A DNA stretch of 8,193 bases, taken from the NCBI GenBank assembly GCA_025453925.1, contig JALOPK010000140.1, positions 1-8,193 on the forward strand, read 5' to 3'. This document shows positions 1,740 through 8,193 of the stretch, piece by piece. Every line of letters begins with the position of its first letter. Position 1 is the stretch's first letter. Source of the stretch: Candidatus Eiseniibacteriota bacterium. GTDB taxonomy: Bacteria > JAFGKV01. The translations under genes and the position numbers were made by a program. The notes below the pieces were generated by a model. That model did not search any database. It was given only the letters and a program-made list of their open reading frames with translations, and was not told the DNA's origin.

Positions 1740-3620
1740 TCACTCAACCTGCGAAACGGAGATAGCGGTTCGCAGGCGGCCATAGATCTCCGCCTTCACC
1801 CTCTCTCTCGCGATCTGTTCCTCCCGCTGGTCGTAGGTGACGCCGGCGGAACGAGGATACCCATAGGCTTCCGGATAGAGGAACTTGCCCCGTGGGCAGA
1901 ACTTGCTGGCTGGGCCCTTAGCTTCTTCGACCGGCCTGCCGAGCTGATGTATCACGGGATCGTCTCGCTCCGCCAGCACTTCCCAGAACACGGAACGGCC
2001 CGGCGCGCCATAGACCGTGAAGCGCCTGAAATCGGAATCCCATTCTCCCCCCACCGGGAAAGGGTGACCGACGGGGGTGAGGTGGATCGAGGCGCCATCC
2101 TCCTTCGCGAGCGCGGGGAAATAGGGCGGCAAGTCGACGCCAGCCTGTCCCGCCGCATCCAAGGCGGTTCGCCCCCGATAGATGAGCAGGTTCTCGGGTG
2201 ACTCTACGAAGTTGTGCCGGAGGAGCCGGTTCTCCGGATCGAGGGGATGGTCAATGACGAACGAGCCTGAGCCCTTCGCGAGCACTCCGGTCACGTTGAC
2301 ATCCCCATCGAACCATCCCGCCCAGTCGGTCACGACGTTTGGCATGTTTCCGTAGACGCCCCAGTTGTATCTCCCCAGCGATCCCCACGCGCCTCCGGTG
2401 CCGCTCACGCCATACGCGCCGTCGAGCGGGGTGCCCAGCGACCCCGCGCATCCACTGTTTGAATGGTATCCGCCGACACCCTCAATACCGGTCCCCTGTC
2501 CATAGGTCCCGGCCGCGCCAACGCTGGTGCCCACCACGCCGAACGCGCTGCCGCTGTAGCCGACGACTCCCGAGTTGCCCCCTGAACCACTCACGCCGAC
2601 GCCGGTGGATGTCTCTCCCACGACGGCGGACGAAGAGCCGCCCAGATAGCCGGTGTGTCCGCTGCTGTTCGATGCCCTGATGACCCCGTCCGATGATCCG
2701 GTGAGTTCGAGAGGGTTGTGCAGGCTGAGGGTCACATCCCCCTGGTCCCCGCCGCCCCAGAGACCATCACCGGCCCATACCGCCGTGATGTCGCCGCCGG
2801 CACCACCACCCGCGGATGAGATCGTGATGGCATTGGCGCCGTCATCGGGCGTGATGGTGATGTTGGCACCCGCGATGAGTTCGACGTCACCGCCGTCGTT
2901 CGAGACACCTGAGATGCTGGACACGACGTCGGGGAAGATCTTGGGTGTGGTTGCGGCGTCATCTGCCATGTCCTGCGTATGCACCGCCCCGTCCAGGATC
3001 TTGGCCGAACTCACGGCGCCCTCGGCCAGATCGGCCGTGGCGACCGCACCGTCTTGAATCTTCGCGCCCGTCACTGCATCCGGGGCGAGAGACGGATCCG
3101 GGTAATCCCCGGTCAGATCGCCGCCCGCCGGTCCGCCCGGAGGGGATGCCGGAATTGCGGTCACGGGGAATCTCCCTGCCTGGTCGAGCACGAGCAGTGC
3201 ACCTGGGGTTGGTTCCGGGAATGCATCATACCCGTCAACCTTGTCGGCGCATGCCGTCCGGAAGCTGTACGGTACCGACGTCAGGAAGATCCGCGGCTGC
3301 TGTGGGGGATTCGCGCCCACCTGAACCTCAATGAAACGGGGGGCATCGAAGCCTGTGTCGAGCGGTGTCGTTTCACCCAGCATCGCCTTGAACAGCCCAT
3401 TCACCACGGGCACCTGGGGGTGCGGTTCCACCCACAGCGCCGTGCCATTGGATTCGGTGTCGAAGAGGCGGAATGTCAACTGGTAGAACCCGTCCTCGAC
3501 CGGCGATCCGGACGCGTCTGTCAGGTAGCCTTGGTACGAGATGAGCGGGGGCACCTGTCCCCGACTCTGGGCGCAGAGACCAGTCAACATGAGCACCGCG
3601 AGCATACGGGTTGCGGTCAT
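1740..3620 (-). CDS. Exported Gly-rich repeat surface protein (long protein A)
   Basis: A 626-residue protein with a signal peptide (about 1-21, hydrophobic core LAVLMLTGLCA), so probably exported to the envelope or cell surface. In order: an N-terminal module at about 22-130 with ISYQGYLTDASGSPVEDG and a TSVPYSF end; five 10-residue repeats at 181-230 of the form GAVxxAKIxD; a Gly-rich neck at 271-317 (GGDITAVWAGDGLWGGGDQG); GVVG-headed 10-residue units at about 342-390; and a C-terminal domain from about 449 starting GSGSFVIDHPLDPENRLLRH. This last domain resembles one seen at the C-terminus of large surface proteins of environmental bacteria. The tail (590-626) is charged and probably helical. 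It is second in an operon: AAGGAGGAA (3628-3636 region) abuts the stop of the upstream gene, nine bases before this ATG. It shares its N-terminal module and neck with the 4578 gene but not its C-terminal domain. Enzymatic function is not evident. A structural or adhesive fibre is inferred. Confidence 0.9.
   Translation of the reverse strand: MTATRMLAVLMLTGLCAQSRGQVPPLISYQGYLTDASGSPVEDGFYQLTFRLFDTESNGTALWVEPHPQVPVVNGLFKAMLGETTPLDTGFDAPRFIEVQVGANPPQQPRIFLTSVPYSFRTACADKVDGYDAFPEPTPGALLVLDQAGRFPVTAIPASPPGGPAGGDLTGDYPDPSLAPDAVTGAKIQDGAVATADLAEGAVSSAKILDGAVHTQDMADDAATTPKIFPDVVSSISGVSNDGGDVELIAGANITITPDDGANAITISSAGGGAGGDITAVWAGDGLWGGGDQGDVTLSLHNPLELTGSSDGVIRASNSSGHTGYLGGSSSAVVGETSTGVGVSGSGGNSGVVGYSGSAFGVVGTSVGAAGTYGQGTGIEGVGGYHSNSGCAGSLGTPLDGAYGVSGTGGAWGSLGRYNWGVYGNMPNVVTDWAGWFDGDVNVTGVLAKGSGSFVIDHPLDPENRLLRHNFVESPENLLIYRGRTALDAAGQAGVDLPPYFPALAKEDGASIHLTPVGHPFPVGGEWDSDFRRFTVYGAPGRSVFWEVLAERDDPVIHQLGRPVEEAKGPASKFCPRGKFLYPEAYGYPRSAGVTYDQREEQIARERVKAEIYGRLRTAISVSQVE
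2451..2570 (-). repeat. GVVG-headed 10-residue repeats in long protein A
   Basis: Residues 351-390 read as four ten-residue units: GVVGYSGSAF, GVVGTSVGAA, GTYGQGTGIE and GVGGYHSNSG. Less regular units lie on both sides (from about 333 to about 423, for example GVSGSGGNS and NWGVYG). The GVxG head is the same one that starts each half of the 26-residue repeat in the plus-strand paralogues. Confidence 0.7.
2931..3080 (-). repeat. Five 10-residue GAVxxAKIxD repeats in long protein A
   Basis: Residues 181-230 of the minus-strand repeat protein form five units of exactly ten residues: DAVTGAKIQD, GAVATADLAE, GAVSSAKILD, GAVHTQDMAD and DAATTPKIFP. The period is 30 bp. The units alternate small residues (A-V) with a K/D-I/L position, a pattern familiar from fibre or stalk segments of secreted bacterial proteins. 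This is protein-level repetition with diverged DNA, so not a recent slippage product. Confidence 0.85.
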
Positions 3621-3635: not shown

Positions 3636-4193
3636 TCAGCGAATGAGCAGAATGGCGTGATTGATCTCATGGACCGGGCGACCCATCGCAGCGGCGCTCA
3701 ACCTCGCCACGTAGACGCCGCTCCCCACCGACCGGCCGGCGAGATCACGACCGTCCCAGCGCGAGGCGTACAGACCCGGAGCGGCGAGGCCGTTCTCCAA
3801 GGGGCAGACGAGGCGGCCCTGCACGTCATAGACCTTAAGGGCGAGGTGACACGACCTCGGCACGGCGTACAAGAGCGTGGTCCACTCGGAAAACGGGTTC
3901 GGGCAGTTGGCATCCAATCGGAAGCTGGCGGGGAGCACGGGGAACGAGTCAGGGACACGCGATGGGCCTTCAAGTGCCGGATTCCAGAATCCCGCCAGGA
4001 TTCTGTAGGGAGACCCCGCCTGAAGCCCGACGATGACCTGACCGACGGTCGCCGCTACGAAGTGAGCAGGTGACGACGAAGTCATCACTCCCCCGGAGGC
4101 CATGGCATCCCAAGAAACCCTCTGTGCCGAAACGGGTGAACCAACCGCACACAAGAGAACGAGTACGCATGCCGGGAGACGCGGGAATGGCAT
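3636..4193 (-). CDS. Small exported protein with FlgD-Ig-like / T9SS type A-like C-terminal domain (short protein A)
   Basis: A 185-residue protein. The longer reading from 4244 is disfavoured: AAAGGAGG at 4199-4206 sits five bases before the ATG at 4193, and this start puts a clean signal peptide (about 1-23, core ACVLVLLCAVGSPVSA) at the N-terminus. Residues 34-71 form a module with GGVMTSSS, GQVIVGL and ending AGFW. Residues 92-185 match the FlgD-like Ig / type IX sorting-domain style: NCPNPFSEWTT at 96-106, a VYDVQGRLV strand at 121-129, WDGRD at 146-150, SGVYVARL at 158-165, and ILLIR at the exact C-terminus. Known cargo of this type is exported across the outer membrane with the C-terminal domain as signal; no secretion machinery is in the window. 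It is first in an operon, 15 nt from the long protein A gene, and is a paralogue of the 6415-6969 gene. Function beyond export is unknown. Confidence 0.88.
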   Translation of the reverse strand: MPFPRLPACVLVLLCAVGSPVSAQRVSWDAMASGGVMTSSSPAHFVAATVGQVIVGLQAGSPYRILAGFWNPALEGPSRVPDSFPVLPASFRLDANCPNPFSEWTTLLYAVPRSCHLALKVYDVQGRLVCPLENGLAAPGLYASRWDGRDLAGRSVGSGVYVARLSAAAMGRPVHEINHAILLIR

Positions 4194-4198
4194 TCTGC

Positions 4199-4206
4199 CC
4201 TCCTTT
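4199..4206 (-). promoter_or_regulatory. Ribosome binding site fixing the start of short protein A
   Basis: On the minus strand this reads AAAGGAGG, five bases before the ATG at 4193-4191. It decides the start against the upstream in-frame ATG at 4244, which would place 17 residues in front of the signal peptide. Confidence 0.85.
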
Positions 4207-4547
4207 CGGCCGCCGACGGGCACTGGGGCGGTCGACGCGGTCAAAGCGGCGCCGAGAAAGCGTCAGGCGACTGAACGGATCACAAGGTGCGAGTACATGA
4301 CGAGGTGCACGCGATCTCAAGTCGGGTACCATCACTGCTCACGGCCACAATCTACCGATGAACGTGACGGAAGGCGAGCCCACGCACGCGCTGGCGTTGC
4401 GAGGTGTCTTCACCAAACTGGAGTGGGGCGTATCTGCGTATCGGCGAGACGCGGACCACGGCAGCGATCACGACCCGCGCCGGCTGTGTGTCTCGAGAAA
4501 TGTTGCCCCCTGACCGGCGTCATGCAAGCTTGTGTCCGTGCTGAGGC

Positions 4548-4559
4548 ATGGCATGCCAT
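4548..4559. promoter_or_regulatory. Perfect 12-bp palindrome in the leader of long protein B
   Basis: ATGGCATGCCAT is perfectly self-complementary and ends 18 bases before the start codon at 4578, just upstream of the Shine-Dalgarno (4565-4573). It could be an operator. It also contains an in-frame ATG (4548) that is the longest-ORF start but lacks a ribosome binding site of its own. No regulator family is assigned. Confidence 0.35.
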
Positions 4560-4577
4560 CGTGAGAGGAGGAGTCTG

Positions 4578-6434
4578 ATGCGATTGAGTCTCGTTCTGGT
4601 GCTTCTGCTGGCGCTGCCGTGCGCGGCCCAGATCCCGCAGCATATCAGCTATCAGGGTCTGCTGACTGATGCGGCGGGGCAGCCCGTTCCCGATGGCGCG
4701 TACGATCTCACGTTCCGGATCTACGATGCGGAGTCGGGCGGAACGCCCCTCTGGTCCGAACCTCACACCGCAGTGCCGGTTCAGGCCGGCATTTTCGATG
4801 TCTCCTTGGGAGAGATCATACCTCTCAACCTTACCTTCAACGCCCCGCATTGGATGGGTGTTACCCATGCCGCGAATCCTGAACTGTCTCCGCGCATTCC
4901 GTTGACCTCGGTGCCCTATGCCTACAATGCCCGGCTGCTGAACGGCTCGGCGCAGGTGGTAAACACCTTGGAGGGCCTCACGGGGGCGGTCGATCTTCAG
5001 GCAGGCTCCAATGTCGGCATCGACGTGACGGGCAGCACGATCACCATCTCCGCCACGGGTGGTGGCGGCGGCGGTGACATCACGGCAGTCATCGCAGGGC
5101 AAGGGCTCGCCGGCGGCGGGACGGCCGGGGATGTGACCCTTTCGGCTGCCGTGCCGTTCGAGCTCTCCGGCACGGCGAACGGAATCATCCGGGCAACGCG
5201 AACCGGTGTCAGCCAGTCTCTCCTCGCCACCGATCAGCAAGGGGTGTACGGCGTCACGTCCCACAGCGCAGGCGAGGGTGTGCAGGGCATCGCCTCGGCG
5301 ACCTCCGGCTATGCGGTCGGTGTGTGGGGCGAGACCGGCAGTGATGGAGGCGACGGCGTCAGGGGTGAAGCCACCGCGACCACTGGATTCGCTTACGGGG
5401 TAACGGGAATCACCTCGTCGGATCATGGGCGCGGGGTCTTTGGGACTGCCACTTCTACGGCCGGGTCTACAAGCGGGGTGTACGGGATCTCCCATTCAAC
5501 CGATGGTGCGGGCGTCCGGGGACTGGCGGATGCCACCTCCGGGCTTGCCAACGGAGGGGATTTCGAGTCGCAATCGGTCCACGGATCGGGTGTGTTCGCC
5601 TGTAACGATCTCCTGAGTGGCACGGGGTCCGGCGTGTGGTCGCGCAGCATGTCCCCCGATGGCGTGGGTGTTCTGGGCTTTGGTATCGCCACATCGGGTG
5701 ACGCCTTGGGCATCTTGGGCCTGAGCGCGTCGTCCGCCGGCTCCGCTATCCGGGGTGAAGCGTTTACATCGTCAGGCGTGACCAATGGCGTATGGGGCGT
5801 CAGTGCAAGTTCAACCGCCGGTGCTGGCGTCTGGGGTCAGGCCCCCGCCACCACGGGCAACAGCTTTGGCGTATTCGGATCGTGCATATCGGCGAGCGCC
5901 TTCGGCGTATTCGCGTCTGGCGATCTGGGCGCCTCGGGCACCAAGAGCGCCGTGGTGAGGACCTCCCAGGGGCCGACACGACTCTATTGCCAGGAGAGCA
6001 CCGAGTGCTGGTTCGAGGACTTCGGGTTCGGGCGGCTATCCAACGGGAGCACGCACATAGAGCTGGATCCGTTGTTCCTCGAGACGGTGACCGTGGATGG
6101 GGCCAATCCGCTGCATGTGTTCATCCAGCTCAGGGATGCATGCGCCGGGGTGTACGTGAAGACCGGGCTCACCGGCTTCGATGTGATCGAGCTGACCGGT
6201 GGGACATCGGATGCCGAGTTCTCGTACCGCGTCGTGGCCAAGCGCCGAGGCGAGGAGGGTCGCCGGCTCGACTTCTGCCCCGCGGGATTCGCCGATCCTC
6301 GCCTCTATCCGGAATCGGAGTCGGCCCGCCTGCGCGCAGAGGTGAGAGACCGGTCCGACCTGGCAAAGAAGTACGATGGCGTGGAACACACGCGGGTCGC
6401 CAGGGGAGGGACCCGTGAACACGACATTGAGTAG
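4578..6434 (+). CDS. Exported 26-residue-repeat surface protein (long protein B)
   Basis: A 618-residue protein. The ATG at 4578 is preferred over 4548 because GAGGAGGAG (4565-4573) precedes it and the signal peptide MRLSLVLVLLLALPCAAQ then begins at residue 1. In order: an N-terminal module at 19-120 with ISYQGLLTDAAGQPVPDG and TSVPYAY; a Gly-rich neck at 161-205 (GGDITAVIAGQGLAGGGT); about eight tandem 26-residue repeats at 232-440; and a C-terminal domain at about 452-556 starting GTKSAVVRTSQG, with CWFEDFG (477-483), IELDPLF (494-500), CAGVYV (522-527) and FSYRVVAKRRG (548-558). A domain like this recurs at the C-terminus of large extracellular proteins of environmental bacteria; its function is unknown to me. 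The tail has DFCPAG (565-570) and LYPES (576-580), echoing long protein A. It is the first gene of an operon with the 6415 gene and resembles the 7283 gene. No catalytic motif is seen. A surface-fibre or adhesive role is inferred. Confidence 0.92.
   Translation: MRLSLVLVLLLALPCAAQIPQHISYQGLLTDAAGQPVPDGAYDLTFRIYDAESGGTPLWSEPHTAVPVQAGIFDVSLGEIIPLNLTFNAPHWMGVTHAANPELSPRIPLTSVPYAYNARLLNGSAQVVNTLEGLTGAVDLQAGSNVGIDVTGSTITISATGGGGGGDITAVIAGQGLAGGGTAGDVTLSAAVPFELSGTANGIIRATRTGVSQSLLATDQQGVYGVTSHSAGEGVQGIASATSGYAVGVWGETGSDGGDGVRGEATATTGFAYGVTGITSSDHGRGVFGTATSTAGSTSGVYGISHSTDGAGVRGLADATSGLANGGDFESQSVHGSGVFACNDLLSGTGSGVWSRSMSPDGVGVLGFGIATSGDALGILGLSASSAGSAIRGEAFTSSGVTNGVWGVSASSTAGAGVWGQAPATTGNSFGVFGSCISASAFGVFASGDLGASGTKSAVVRTSQGPTRLYCQESTECWFEDFGFGRLSNGSTHIELDPLFLETVTVDGANPLHVFIQLRDACAGVYVKTGLTGFDVIELTGGTSDAEFSYRVVAKRRGEEGRRLDFCPAGFADPRLYPESESARLRAEVRDRSDLAKKYDGVEHTRVARGGTREHDIE
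5271..5897 (+). repeat. Eight tandem 26-residue (78-bp) repeats in long protein B
   Basis: Residues 232-440 divide into units beginning at 232, 258, 284, 310, 336, 362, 388 and 415: six of exactly 26 residues, one of 27, and a last degenerate one. Conserved positions are G1, G3, V4, G6, A8, A10-T11, S/T12, G13, G17, V18, G20 and S24. A more diverged unit (206-231) precedes them. Each unit has two GVxG-headed halves of about 14 and 12 residues. The DNA copies have diverged, so the repeat is old and kept by selection at protein level. Confidence 0.9.
6403..6410 (+). promoter_or_regulatory. Ribosome binding site inside the long protein B gene, fixing the GTG start
   Basis: GGGGAGGG lies within the last codons of the upstream gene, four bases before the GTG at 6415. 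It supports the GTG start and translational linkage of the overlapping pair. Confidence 0.7.
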
Positions 6435-6969
6435 CAGGTTGCGACGGAGTCCTCCCGTGCGTGCCGCATGTGTGCACGCCGTTATCGCCTGTCTGGCCAT
6501 CGCTGTCGCCCATGGACAGGTTGCCGGTGTCCGTGGTGTCATCGGCAGTGGAGGGCCGTCCATGAGCGGATCGGGAGTACAGCTCAAAGGAACGCTTGGG
6601 CAGCCCGCGCCGGGTCAGACCCTCGGCGCCGCGCTGGTGTGCTCCGGCGGTTTCTGGTACACGATCGGCGCGGGAGGACAGGGCATCGATGACGCGGTCC
6701 TCCCTTCCTGGTACGAACTCTCGCGCGGCCATCCGAATCCGTTTTCGAGCACGACCACGCTGGAGTACGCCTTGCCTGCGGCGTCTCATGTGTCGCTCGC
6801 GGTGTTTGACGCCCAAGGACGGCTGCTGAAACGGTTGATCCACGGGCAGCAGGCGGCCGGAACATACGCCGTGACACTCCACGCCGGGGGTCTCGCACCG
6901 GGCGTCTACGTCTGCAGGCTCGATACTGGCGGATTCCAGGCGACCAGACTGATGGTCCTGATACGGTAG
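6415..6969 (+). CDS. Small exported protein with FlgD-Ig-like / T9SS type A-like C-terminal domain (short protein B)
   Basis: A 184-residue protein, with the GTG at 6415 chosen as start. GGGGAGGG at 6403-6410 sits four bases before it, and translation from there gives an arginine-containing n-region and a hydrophobic core (AACVHAVIACLAIAVA, residues 17-32) with a likely cut near AHG-Q. The ATG at 6376 would add 13 residues and has no comparable ribosome binding site. Residues 46-84 repeat the module of short protein A (SGGPSMSGSG, GTLGQPAPG, GGFW). Residues 102-184 form the sorting-type domain: GHPNPFSSTTT (105-115), AVFDAQGRLL (129-138), PGVYVCRL (162-169), ending LMVLIR. Unlike its paralogue it lacks WDGRD before the last strands. 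The gene overlaps the end of long protein B by 20 nt, indicating one mRNA. Its 3' end is followed within ten bases by a strong hairpin. Function beyond likely surface export is unknown. Confidence 0.88.
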   Translation: MNTTLSSRLRRSPPVRAACVHAVIACLAIAVAHGQVAGVRGVIGSGGPSMSGSGVQLKGTLGQPAPGQTLGAALVCSGGFWYTIGAGGQGIDDAVLPSWYELSRGHPNPFSSTTTLEYALPAASHVSLAVFDAQGRLLKRLIHGQQAAGTYAVTLHAGGLAPGVYVCRLDTGGFQATRLMVLIR

Positions 6970-7282: not shown

Positions 7283-8193
7283 ATGAGGGGTGTTTCGGCT
7301 GGATCGAGATGTGCCGCGGTGCTCGTGCTGATGCTGGGAATCCCTGGTGCCGCAGTTGCCGAGATCCCACAGGTGATCAGCTACCAGGGGAAGGTGACGG
7401 ACGCCGGCGGCGCGCCGGTGGCCGATGGCACGTACACGATGTGGTTCCGGATCTACGACGCGGTCTCCGGGGGGAATCTGGTGTGGGACAGTGGGGCACA
7501 GTCGGTAGCCCTCACCGGCGGCATCTTCAGCGTTCTGCTGGGCGAGAGCCCGATGCCGGCCCTGACCCTGGACTTCTCGCAGGACTACTGGCTGGGGGTC
7601 GTCTTTTCAGGCACCAGCCAAACCCCCCGCCAGCGACTTGCGTCGGTCGGCTATGCGTACATGGCGAGCGGATTGGTGCCGGGCACCTTGGTGAGCGGGC
7701 CGGTCATCAGCGGCACGATTTCCGCACTCAAAGTGCAGAACACTGCCACATCGGGGGTCACCTATGGGCTCTTCGCCGAGAGCGCGTCACCCACGGGAAG
7801 GGCGATCGTGGGGGAAGCGACGGCCACATCGGGATCCTGCTACGGGGTCGAGGGAGGCAGCTACTCCACGGCAGGCGCAGGGATGTCAGGATGGGCCTCG
7901 GCGACCACCGGTCTGACGTACGGAGTTCAGGGATGGGCCGGTTCGAGCGTCGGGACGGGTGTGTACGGTTGGGCCAGCCGGACGAGCGGCTCCACCACGG
8001 GCGTCTGGGGCAAAGTCGAGTCGCCGAATGGCAGGGCGGTCTTCGGGGAGGCCACGGCAACGTACGGGGATTGCTACGGCGGCCGATTCCAGACCGCGAG
8101 CACGTACGGGTACGGCGTGCTGGGGTGGGCGTCCTCCACCACCGGATCGACCTTCGGGGGCAGATTCGAAACCCCCAGCAGCTCCGGCCGCGC
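7283..8193 (+). CDS. Exported 26-residue-repeat surface protein, 3' truncated by window (long protein C)
   Basis: Open to the last base; 303 residues are visible and the C-terminus is missing. GGAGGG (7271-7276) lies six bases before the ATG. The signal peptide is about 1-26 (core CAAVLVLMLGIPGAAVA). Residues 27-131 are the same N-terminal module as in the two other long proteins (EIPQVISYQGKVTDAGGAPV, WFRIYDAVSGG, GIFSVLLGE, SVGYAYMA). It lacks the Gly-rich GGDITAV neck and passes directly, from about residue 146, into tandem 26-residue repeats. Cysteines occur at equivalent positions in two repeats (C186 and C264, each in an S/D-C-Y-G context). It probably starts a new transcription unit after the hairpin-rich spacer. 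A surface-fibre role is inferred. By analogy with the two complete cassettes, a small sorting-domain partner gene may follow beyond the window. Confidence 0.92.
   Translation, partial: MRGVSAGSRCAAVLVLMLGIPGAAVAEIPQVISYQGKVTDAGGAPVADGTYTMWFRIYDAVSGGNLVWDSGAQSVALTGGIFSVLLGESPMPALTLDFSQDYWLGVVFSGTSQTPRQRLASVGYAYMASGLVPGTLVSGPVISGTISALKVQNTATSGVTYGLFAESASPTGRAIVGEATATSGSCYGVEGGSYSTAGAGMSGWASATTGLTYGVQGWAGSSVGTGVYGWASRTSGSTTGVWGKVESPNGRAVFGEATATYGDCYGGRFQTASTYGYGVLGWASSTTGSTFGGRFETPSSSGR
7718..8193 (+). repeat. Tandem 26-residue (78-bp) repeats in long protein C
   Basis: Units begin at residues 146 (degenerate), 172, 198, 224, 250 and 276, and the next G-R begins at 302 as the window ends. Each of these six units is exactly 26 residues, with no indels. 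Conserved positions equal those in long protein B: G1, V4, G6, A8, T11, S/T12, G13, G17, V18 and S24. Some units replace the second GVxG with GGRF. The array continues past the window. Confidence 0.9.

Follow-up and report, generated by a model that had tools for sequence, protein, structure and literature searches.

Putative MAT-superfamily surface fibres of Candidatus Fermentibacteria carry a 26-residue double-GVxG repeat and recur beside a GQ...GFW companion gene

The window analysed here, a stretch of 8,193 nucleotides, is one entire contig (C142) of a 3.9 Mb genome (G000, 82% complete) whose closest named relative is the Candidatus Fermentibacteria isolate Zod_Metabat.355. It carries genes for the candidate fibre proteins A, B and C and for two small companion proteins, sA and sB, with the following features:

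272-1612: glutamine synthetase gene, neighbour of the fibres in the window
1740-3620, minus strand: protein A, candidate fibre of 626 aa (N-domain, linker, glycine-rich shaft and its own tip)
3636-4244, minus strand: companion sA, upstream of A (GQ...GFW module and FlgD-like C-terminus)
4548-6434 (ORF), plus strand: protein B, candidate fibre of 628 aa (apparent signal peptide, N-domain, shaft and phage-like tip)
4620..4931, plus strand: N-domain of B, MAT_N-like (NF053851, profile and hhalign matches)
5241..5952, plus strand: shaft of B, about residues 232-468, nine units of 26 or 27 residues, the ninth degenerate, each GVxG(12)+GVxG(14)
5910..6350, plus strand: tip domain of B (phrog_6616 tail protein match)
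6376-6969, plus strand: companion sB, after B (GQ...GFW module, then T9SS type A sorting domain)
7241->8193, plus strand: protein C, incomplete, cut by the contig end (apparent signal peptide, and N-domain at 7352-7666)
from 7766, plus strand: shaft of C, five 26-residue units and then a partial sixth

The true start of B is probably Met11 (position 4578), which is nearly invariant in the 14 paralogues compared.

The shaft of B is built, from residue 232, of seven 26-residue units, one of 27 residues and a degenerate ninth, and that of C of five 26-residue units starting at residue 176 and followed by a partial one. A preliminary description of the sequence had reported 26-residue tandem units in both proteins with a single 27-residue exception, and the analysis confirmed it: the segment concerned (5271-5897, residues 242-450 of B) corresponds to 7 x 26 + 27 = 209 residues, and self-identity at lag 26 was 75 in B against a shuffled mean of 25.2, and 50 in C against 13.5 in shuffles (z 11.1 in each), with lags 25 and 27 at or below chance. 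Lags 12 and 14 are raised as well (z about 3-5), in agreement with the proposed division of the unit into two GVxG-headed halves of 14 and 12 residues. The consensus is approximately GVYGESxSxxGRGVYGxAxATSGTTY, about 18% of units beginning with GGxF in place of GVxG. The conserved G, V, A and S/T positions first listed for B and C also held when 721 overlapping instances of the unit were compared: G1 (96%), V2 (72%), G4 (75%), S8 (91%), G11 (96%), G13 (84%), V14 (85%), G16 (88%), A18 (72%), A20 (68%), S/T22 (71%) and G23 (92%), position 1 of the earlier numbering being position 11 here. Because these windows were chosen partly on the G and V positions, it is S8, A18, A20 and S/T22 that represent independent positions. 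The commonest spacings between consecutive GVxG motifs are 14, 12 or 26 residues both in the paralogues of the same genome (68, 66 and 28 cases) and in those of a second genome of the genus, G001 (155, 145 and 62 cases), and the spacing is therefore a property of the family. No tandem repeat was found in the DNA of the window, so the repeat must be an old one, at the protein level; a DNA tandem repeat or an assembly artefact was rejected as its source on this ground and because the unit is conserved in the second genome. The 10-residue GVVG units of A had been read as a shorter form of the same building block, a view that was not upheld, since neither a 10- nor a 26-residue period is significant in A (z 1.1 and 1.4, respectively). 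Some tip-sharing relatives do have shafts of the GVxG type, their periods being about 10, 15 and 30. A Pfam search of A, B and C returned no family for the repeat unit at E<1, a PDB sequence search gave chance matches only, to a pilin (E 0.36), and the literature on the GVYG unit and on Fermentibacter adhesins yielded nothing useful. The earlier statement that no named family exists thus stands for the repeat unit and fails for the whole proteins, which profile comparisons place in the MAT superfamily.

The N-terminal domains of A, B and C score 25.6, 33.9 (E 2.4e-8) and 21.0 bits, respectively, against the NF053851 model (Bdello_MAT_N), all under its cut-off of 60, and the three proteins are accordingly superfamily relatives and not members of the Bdellovibrio subfamily. 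The N-domain of B matches the A5 profile with an E value of 5e-41, and the hhalign comparison of the family N-domain profile with 30 MAT N-domains gave a probability of 99.1 (E 8.7e-19) over 101 columns; these 30 domains come from over-cut-off proteins of the order of genome G270, taken as Bdellovibrionales from the family model. A direct hhalign comparison of the N-domain with one divergent MAT protein (L197) gave no match, although the family profile did match, and NF053851 scores form a continuous grade across 46 genomes. Judged by these profiles, A, B and C are relatives within the known MAT superfamily, and the 26-residue shaft of B and C is a new variant. In Bdellovibrio, MAT proteins have been shown experimentally to form trimers, to be displayed at the surface and to bind prey glycans (PMC10769870). 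The proteins described here resemble those of Bdellovibrio bacteriovorus (PMC10769870; NF053851) in having a signal peptide (apparent here), a homologous N-domain, a shaft that is long, rich in beta structure and equipped with phage-fibre elements, tips that vary, and tens of paralogues per genome. They differ in their N-domain, an all-beta domain in the model (pLDDT 72-87), which spans about 107 positions in contrast to the beta-rich domain of about 130 aa that directly follows the signal peptide in the MAT superfamily and which scores under the subfamily cut-off, and in a shaft made of 26-residue double-GVxG units, the 12/14 GVxG unit being absent from the sequence parts compared in MAT proteins of the Bdellovibrio order. 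At least 16 copies (ORFs with the N-domain) are present in the same genome as the window and at least 31 in the same-genus genome, and in the order of G270 several genomes belonging to a single genus have 17-23 over-cut-off MAT proteins each. Fibre ORFs often end at contig ends (in G000, contigs C50, C442, C461, C184, C355, C376, C276, C249 and C165); the assembly therefore probably breaks on the fibre family, and the copy numbers are rough. No Pfam match to the YadA anchor barrel of trimeric autotransporter adhesins was found in A or B, and the C-terminus of C is missing. Altogether, B and C are likely to be secreted trimeric surface fibres of the MAT superfamily, with an N-domain anchor, a 26-residue-unit shaft and a ligand-binding tip of phage type.

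The tip of B matches the phrog_6616 tail protein (E 8e-11) and is 30-38% identical to tail proteins of Lactobacillus, Lactococcus, Enterococcus and other phages, and its model has weak fold matches (VIA-align) to the phage AP22 fibre (4mtm, Z 6.9) and the R2 pyocin fibre (6cl6, Z 6.6). The tip of A (residues 446-519) matches phrog_17490, of unknown function, and its linker (residues 178-236), which has a GDL(T/S)GxYPxPS motif also seen in a MAT shaft, matches the tail-fibre family phrog_892. Such matches to phage tail PHROGs and tail proteins might indicate a remnant or domesticated tail fibre, encoded by a prophage or a tailocin-like particle, but this origin is very improbable: the fibres have apparent signal peptides, the window is without tail genes and has a glutamine synthetase gene as a neighbour, the copies are scattered over many contigs, and the tip was found on only two viral contigs in the scan made here. 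The phrog_6616 proteins of Gram-positive siphophages, which share a homologous tip domain, are annotated phage tail proteins; the match to them spans the tip only and not the N-domain. Together, apparent signal peptides, MAT N-domain homology and phage-fibre tips support the initial idea of surface proteins with a structural repeat. At least four tip types exist in the family, that of B in most paralogues, a different one in A and at least two more, the clustering having used the last 200 residues, so that shaft sequence can merge clusters. Paralogue tips are diverged (mean identity 0.58), and the 28 paralogues with both ends show no correlation between N-domain identity and tip identity (Mantel r 0.02, p 0.43), as would be expected if modules were exchanged. 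Elsewhere, at locus L088, a protein very similar to A occurs with a companion in the same order. The repeats might alternatively form a passive spacer or coat, that is, a surface layer or matrix fibre without a specific ligand in which the tip is a folding cap. The B-type tip, present in most paralogues and with no binding site identified, could indeed be a trimerisation cap; this is nevertheless unlikely, as the many paralogues with diverged tips of at least four types fit diversified recognition better.

The geometry of the shaft, for which the preliminary description had suggested perhaps a beta-solenoid or an intertwined fibre, has been approached through structure models. In the full-length B monomer (14-sequence alignment), the N-domain reaches pLDDT of about 72-87 and the tip about 80, and the shaft stays at 50-65; strands resembling a beta-helix appear there at low confidence every 26 residues (245, 271, 297, 323, 349 and 375). 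Monomer shaft models are poor in general (mean pLDDT about 55), and Foldseek returned no match for the full-length B model at E<=0.001. VIA-align with the low-confidence model retrieved beta-helix tailspikes with Z up to 13, but with an rmsd of 11.6, and this was given little weight. The regular strands, and the alignment of the modelled shaft to beta-helices of tailspikes and pectate lyases (4ru4, Z 9.9, rmsd 4.6 over 266), would fit a monomeric beta-solenoid adhesin, in which a single chain winds into a right-handed beta-helix, one coil per 26-residue unit, and no trimer is needed. This explanation is regarded as rather unlikely given the low pLDDT of the shaft, the result for the seven-unit shaft modelled alone (49 aligned relatives), which has no secondary structure, unusual for a self-sufficient solenoid, and the N-domain and tip relatives (MAT and phage fibres), which belong to trimers. 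It is because both ends are homologous to trimeric fibres that a trimeric beta-helical shaft is inferred, and within the trimer a triple-stranded beta-helix is slightly favoured over side-by-side single-chain helices. The triple-stranded beta-helix of phage T4 gp5, with its VxGxxxxx repeat (PMC4576200), is alike by analogy only, in its short V-x-G heads, fixed spacing and trimeric shaft; its period is of 8 residues in contrast to 12+14 here, and no sequence homology has been shown.

The seven-unit shaft profile detected the repeat (E<=1e-15) in 4 of 386 genomes domain-wide, three of them Fermentibacteria and one other, and a scan of the collection for proteins with the tip found clear 26-residue shafts in Syntrophaceae (L129), Desulfobacterales (L135), Terriglobales (L133) and Acidobacteriaceae (L153). 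Other shaft periods in the same scan were 15/30/45 in Zixibacteria and about 10 in Rhodocyclaceae and Paraburkholderia; the loci with these GVxG-type shafts are L116, L130, L134, L136 and L154 for Zixibacteria and L164, L166 and L172 for the proteobacterial ones. Since shaft periods differ among related proteins, the shaft behaves as an interchangeable module, and its length between both end domains ranges in paralogues from about 7 to 32 unit-lengths. In the UBP14 genome G005 (L098, 5208-7889, minus strand), an N-domain and a tip of the kind described here flank a shaft containing a collagen-like GPTGPTGATG stretch.

Another feature of the locus is the small secreted companion encoded beside the fibres. 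A 42-residue module (...GG...Y....T.GQ...G.S.G..Y....GFW), for which Pfam holds no family, is common to sA and sB. The sorting domain of sB scores 34.9 bits against TIGR04183, above the cut-off of 23, and the same genome encodes the T9SS protein SprA, as shown by a SprA_N match over the cut-off. In sA, the type A sorting domain scores 18.3 bits, under that cut-off, and the FlgD-like C-terminus 26.5 bits against PF13860, just under its cut-off of 27; a scan of four other Fermentibacteria companions gave no match to the type A sorting domain. What follows the module differs, with a T9SS-type tail in sB, L064, L091 and L142, a dockerin in L134 and neither in the others, and with tails so varied a role as T9SS anchor cannot hold for the companion in general. 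In three Fermentibacteria genomes the companion profile found 24 modules, of which 19 lie directly beside a same-strand fibre gene, a figure inflated because the 19 modules that seeded the profile were picked by adjacency. In other genomes, contributing few if any seeds, at least 24 of the 46 companion modules are within 1 kb of a fibre gene. Of the 32 genomes with a companion, 30 carry the N-domain, which is present in 69 of all 386 genomes (Fisher p 2.7e-23, kinship ignored). Companions beside MAT-type fibre genes also occur in several phyla, at L124, L128, L134, L142, L160 and L091. This pairing of many copies with a GQ...GFW protein is a further difference from the MAT proteins of Bdellovibrio, as the module was not found in nine genomes of that order, in a search that had no positive control.

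Some companions, in other phyla and in one case in Fermentibacteria (L091, 18.1 bits), match the N-terminal third (about 80 positions) of NF058579 (CPR_pilus_PamT), far under its cut-off of 240. Matches with E 2e-7 to 3e-4 are in L124 (4534-5103), L134 (5973-6572), L142 (4405-4932) and G060:C1:2617-2868; a search of the whole genomes G000-G002 gave no match at E 0.001, and nothing useful was found in the literature on PamT or on the T9SS of Fermentibacter. A link between these fibres and CPR pili is possible, as a lead to follow. According to the authors who described MAT proteins, the MAT N-domain is assumed to need a surface partner (PMC10769870). The companion could conceivably be a partner dedicated to MAT-type fibres, presenting or anchoring them by binding their conserved N-domain and itself routed to the surface by a T9SS tail, a dockerin or fused domains, a proposal considered doubtful at present. 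If true, the companion would be the surface element presumed to be bound by the MAT N-domain, at least outside Bdellovibrio.

In the model proposed for B and C, trimerisation, shaft geometry, surface display and ligand binding are inferred. The conserved N-terminal domain would keep the fibre at the cell surface, and the 26-residue GVxG units would form a rigid beta-helical shaft setting the length of the fibre, the 12- and 14-residue halves perhaps making one shaft face each. The C-terminal tip, of phage tail-fibre type, would bind a surface glycan or other ligand, and the small co-encoded GQ...GFW protein might, more speculatively, assist in the presentation or assembly of some of them. Under such a reading, a family of fibres whose experimental evidence comes from a bacterial predator would extend to a phylum known only from uncultured members, with copy numbers per genome that are as high or higher, and the recurrent neighbour gene would offer a specific candidate for the surface partner presumed for the MAT N-domain. 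Finally, large sets of exchangeable fibres suggest that Fermentibacteria may recognise many surfaces, perhaps including other cells.
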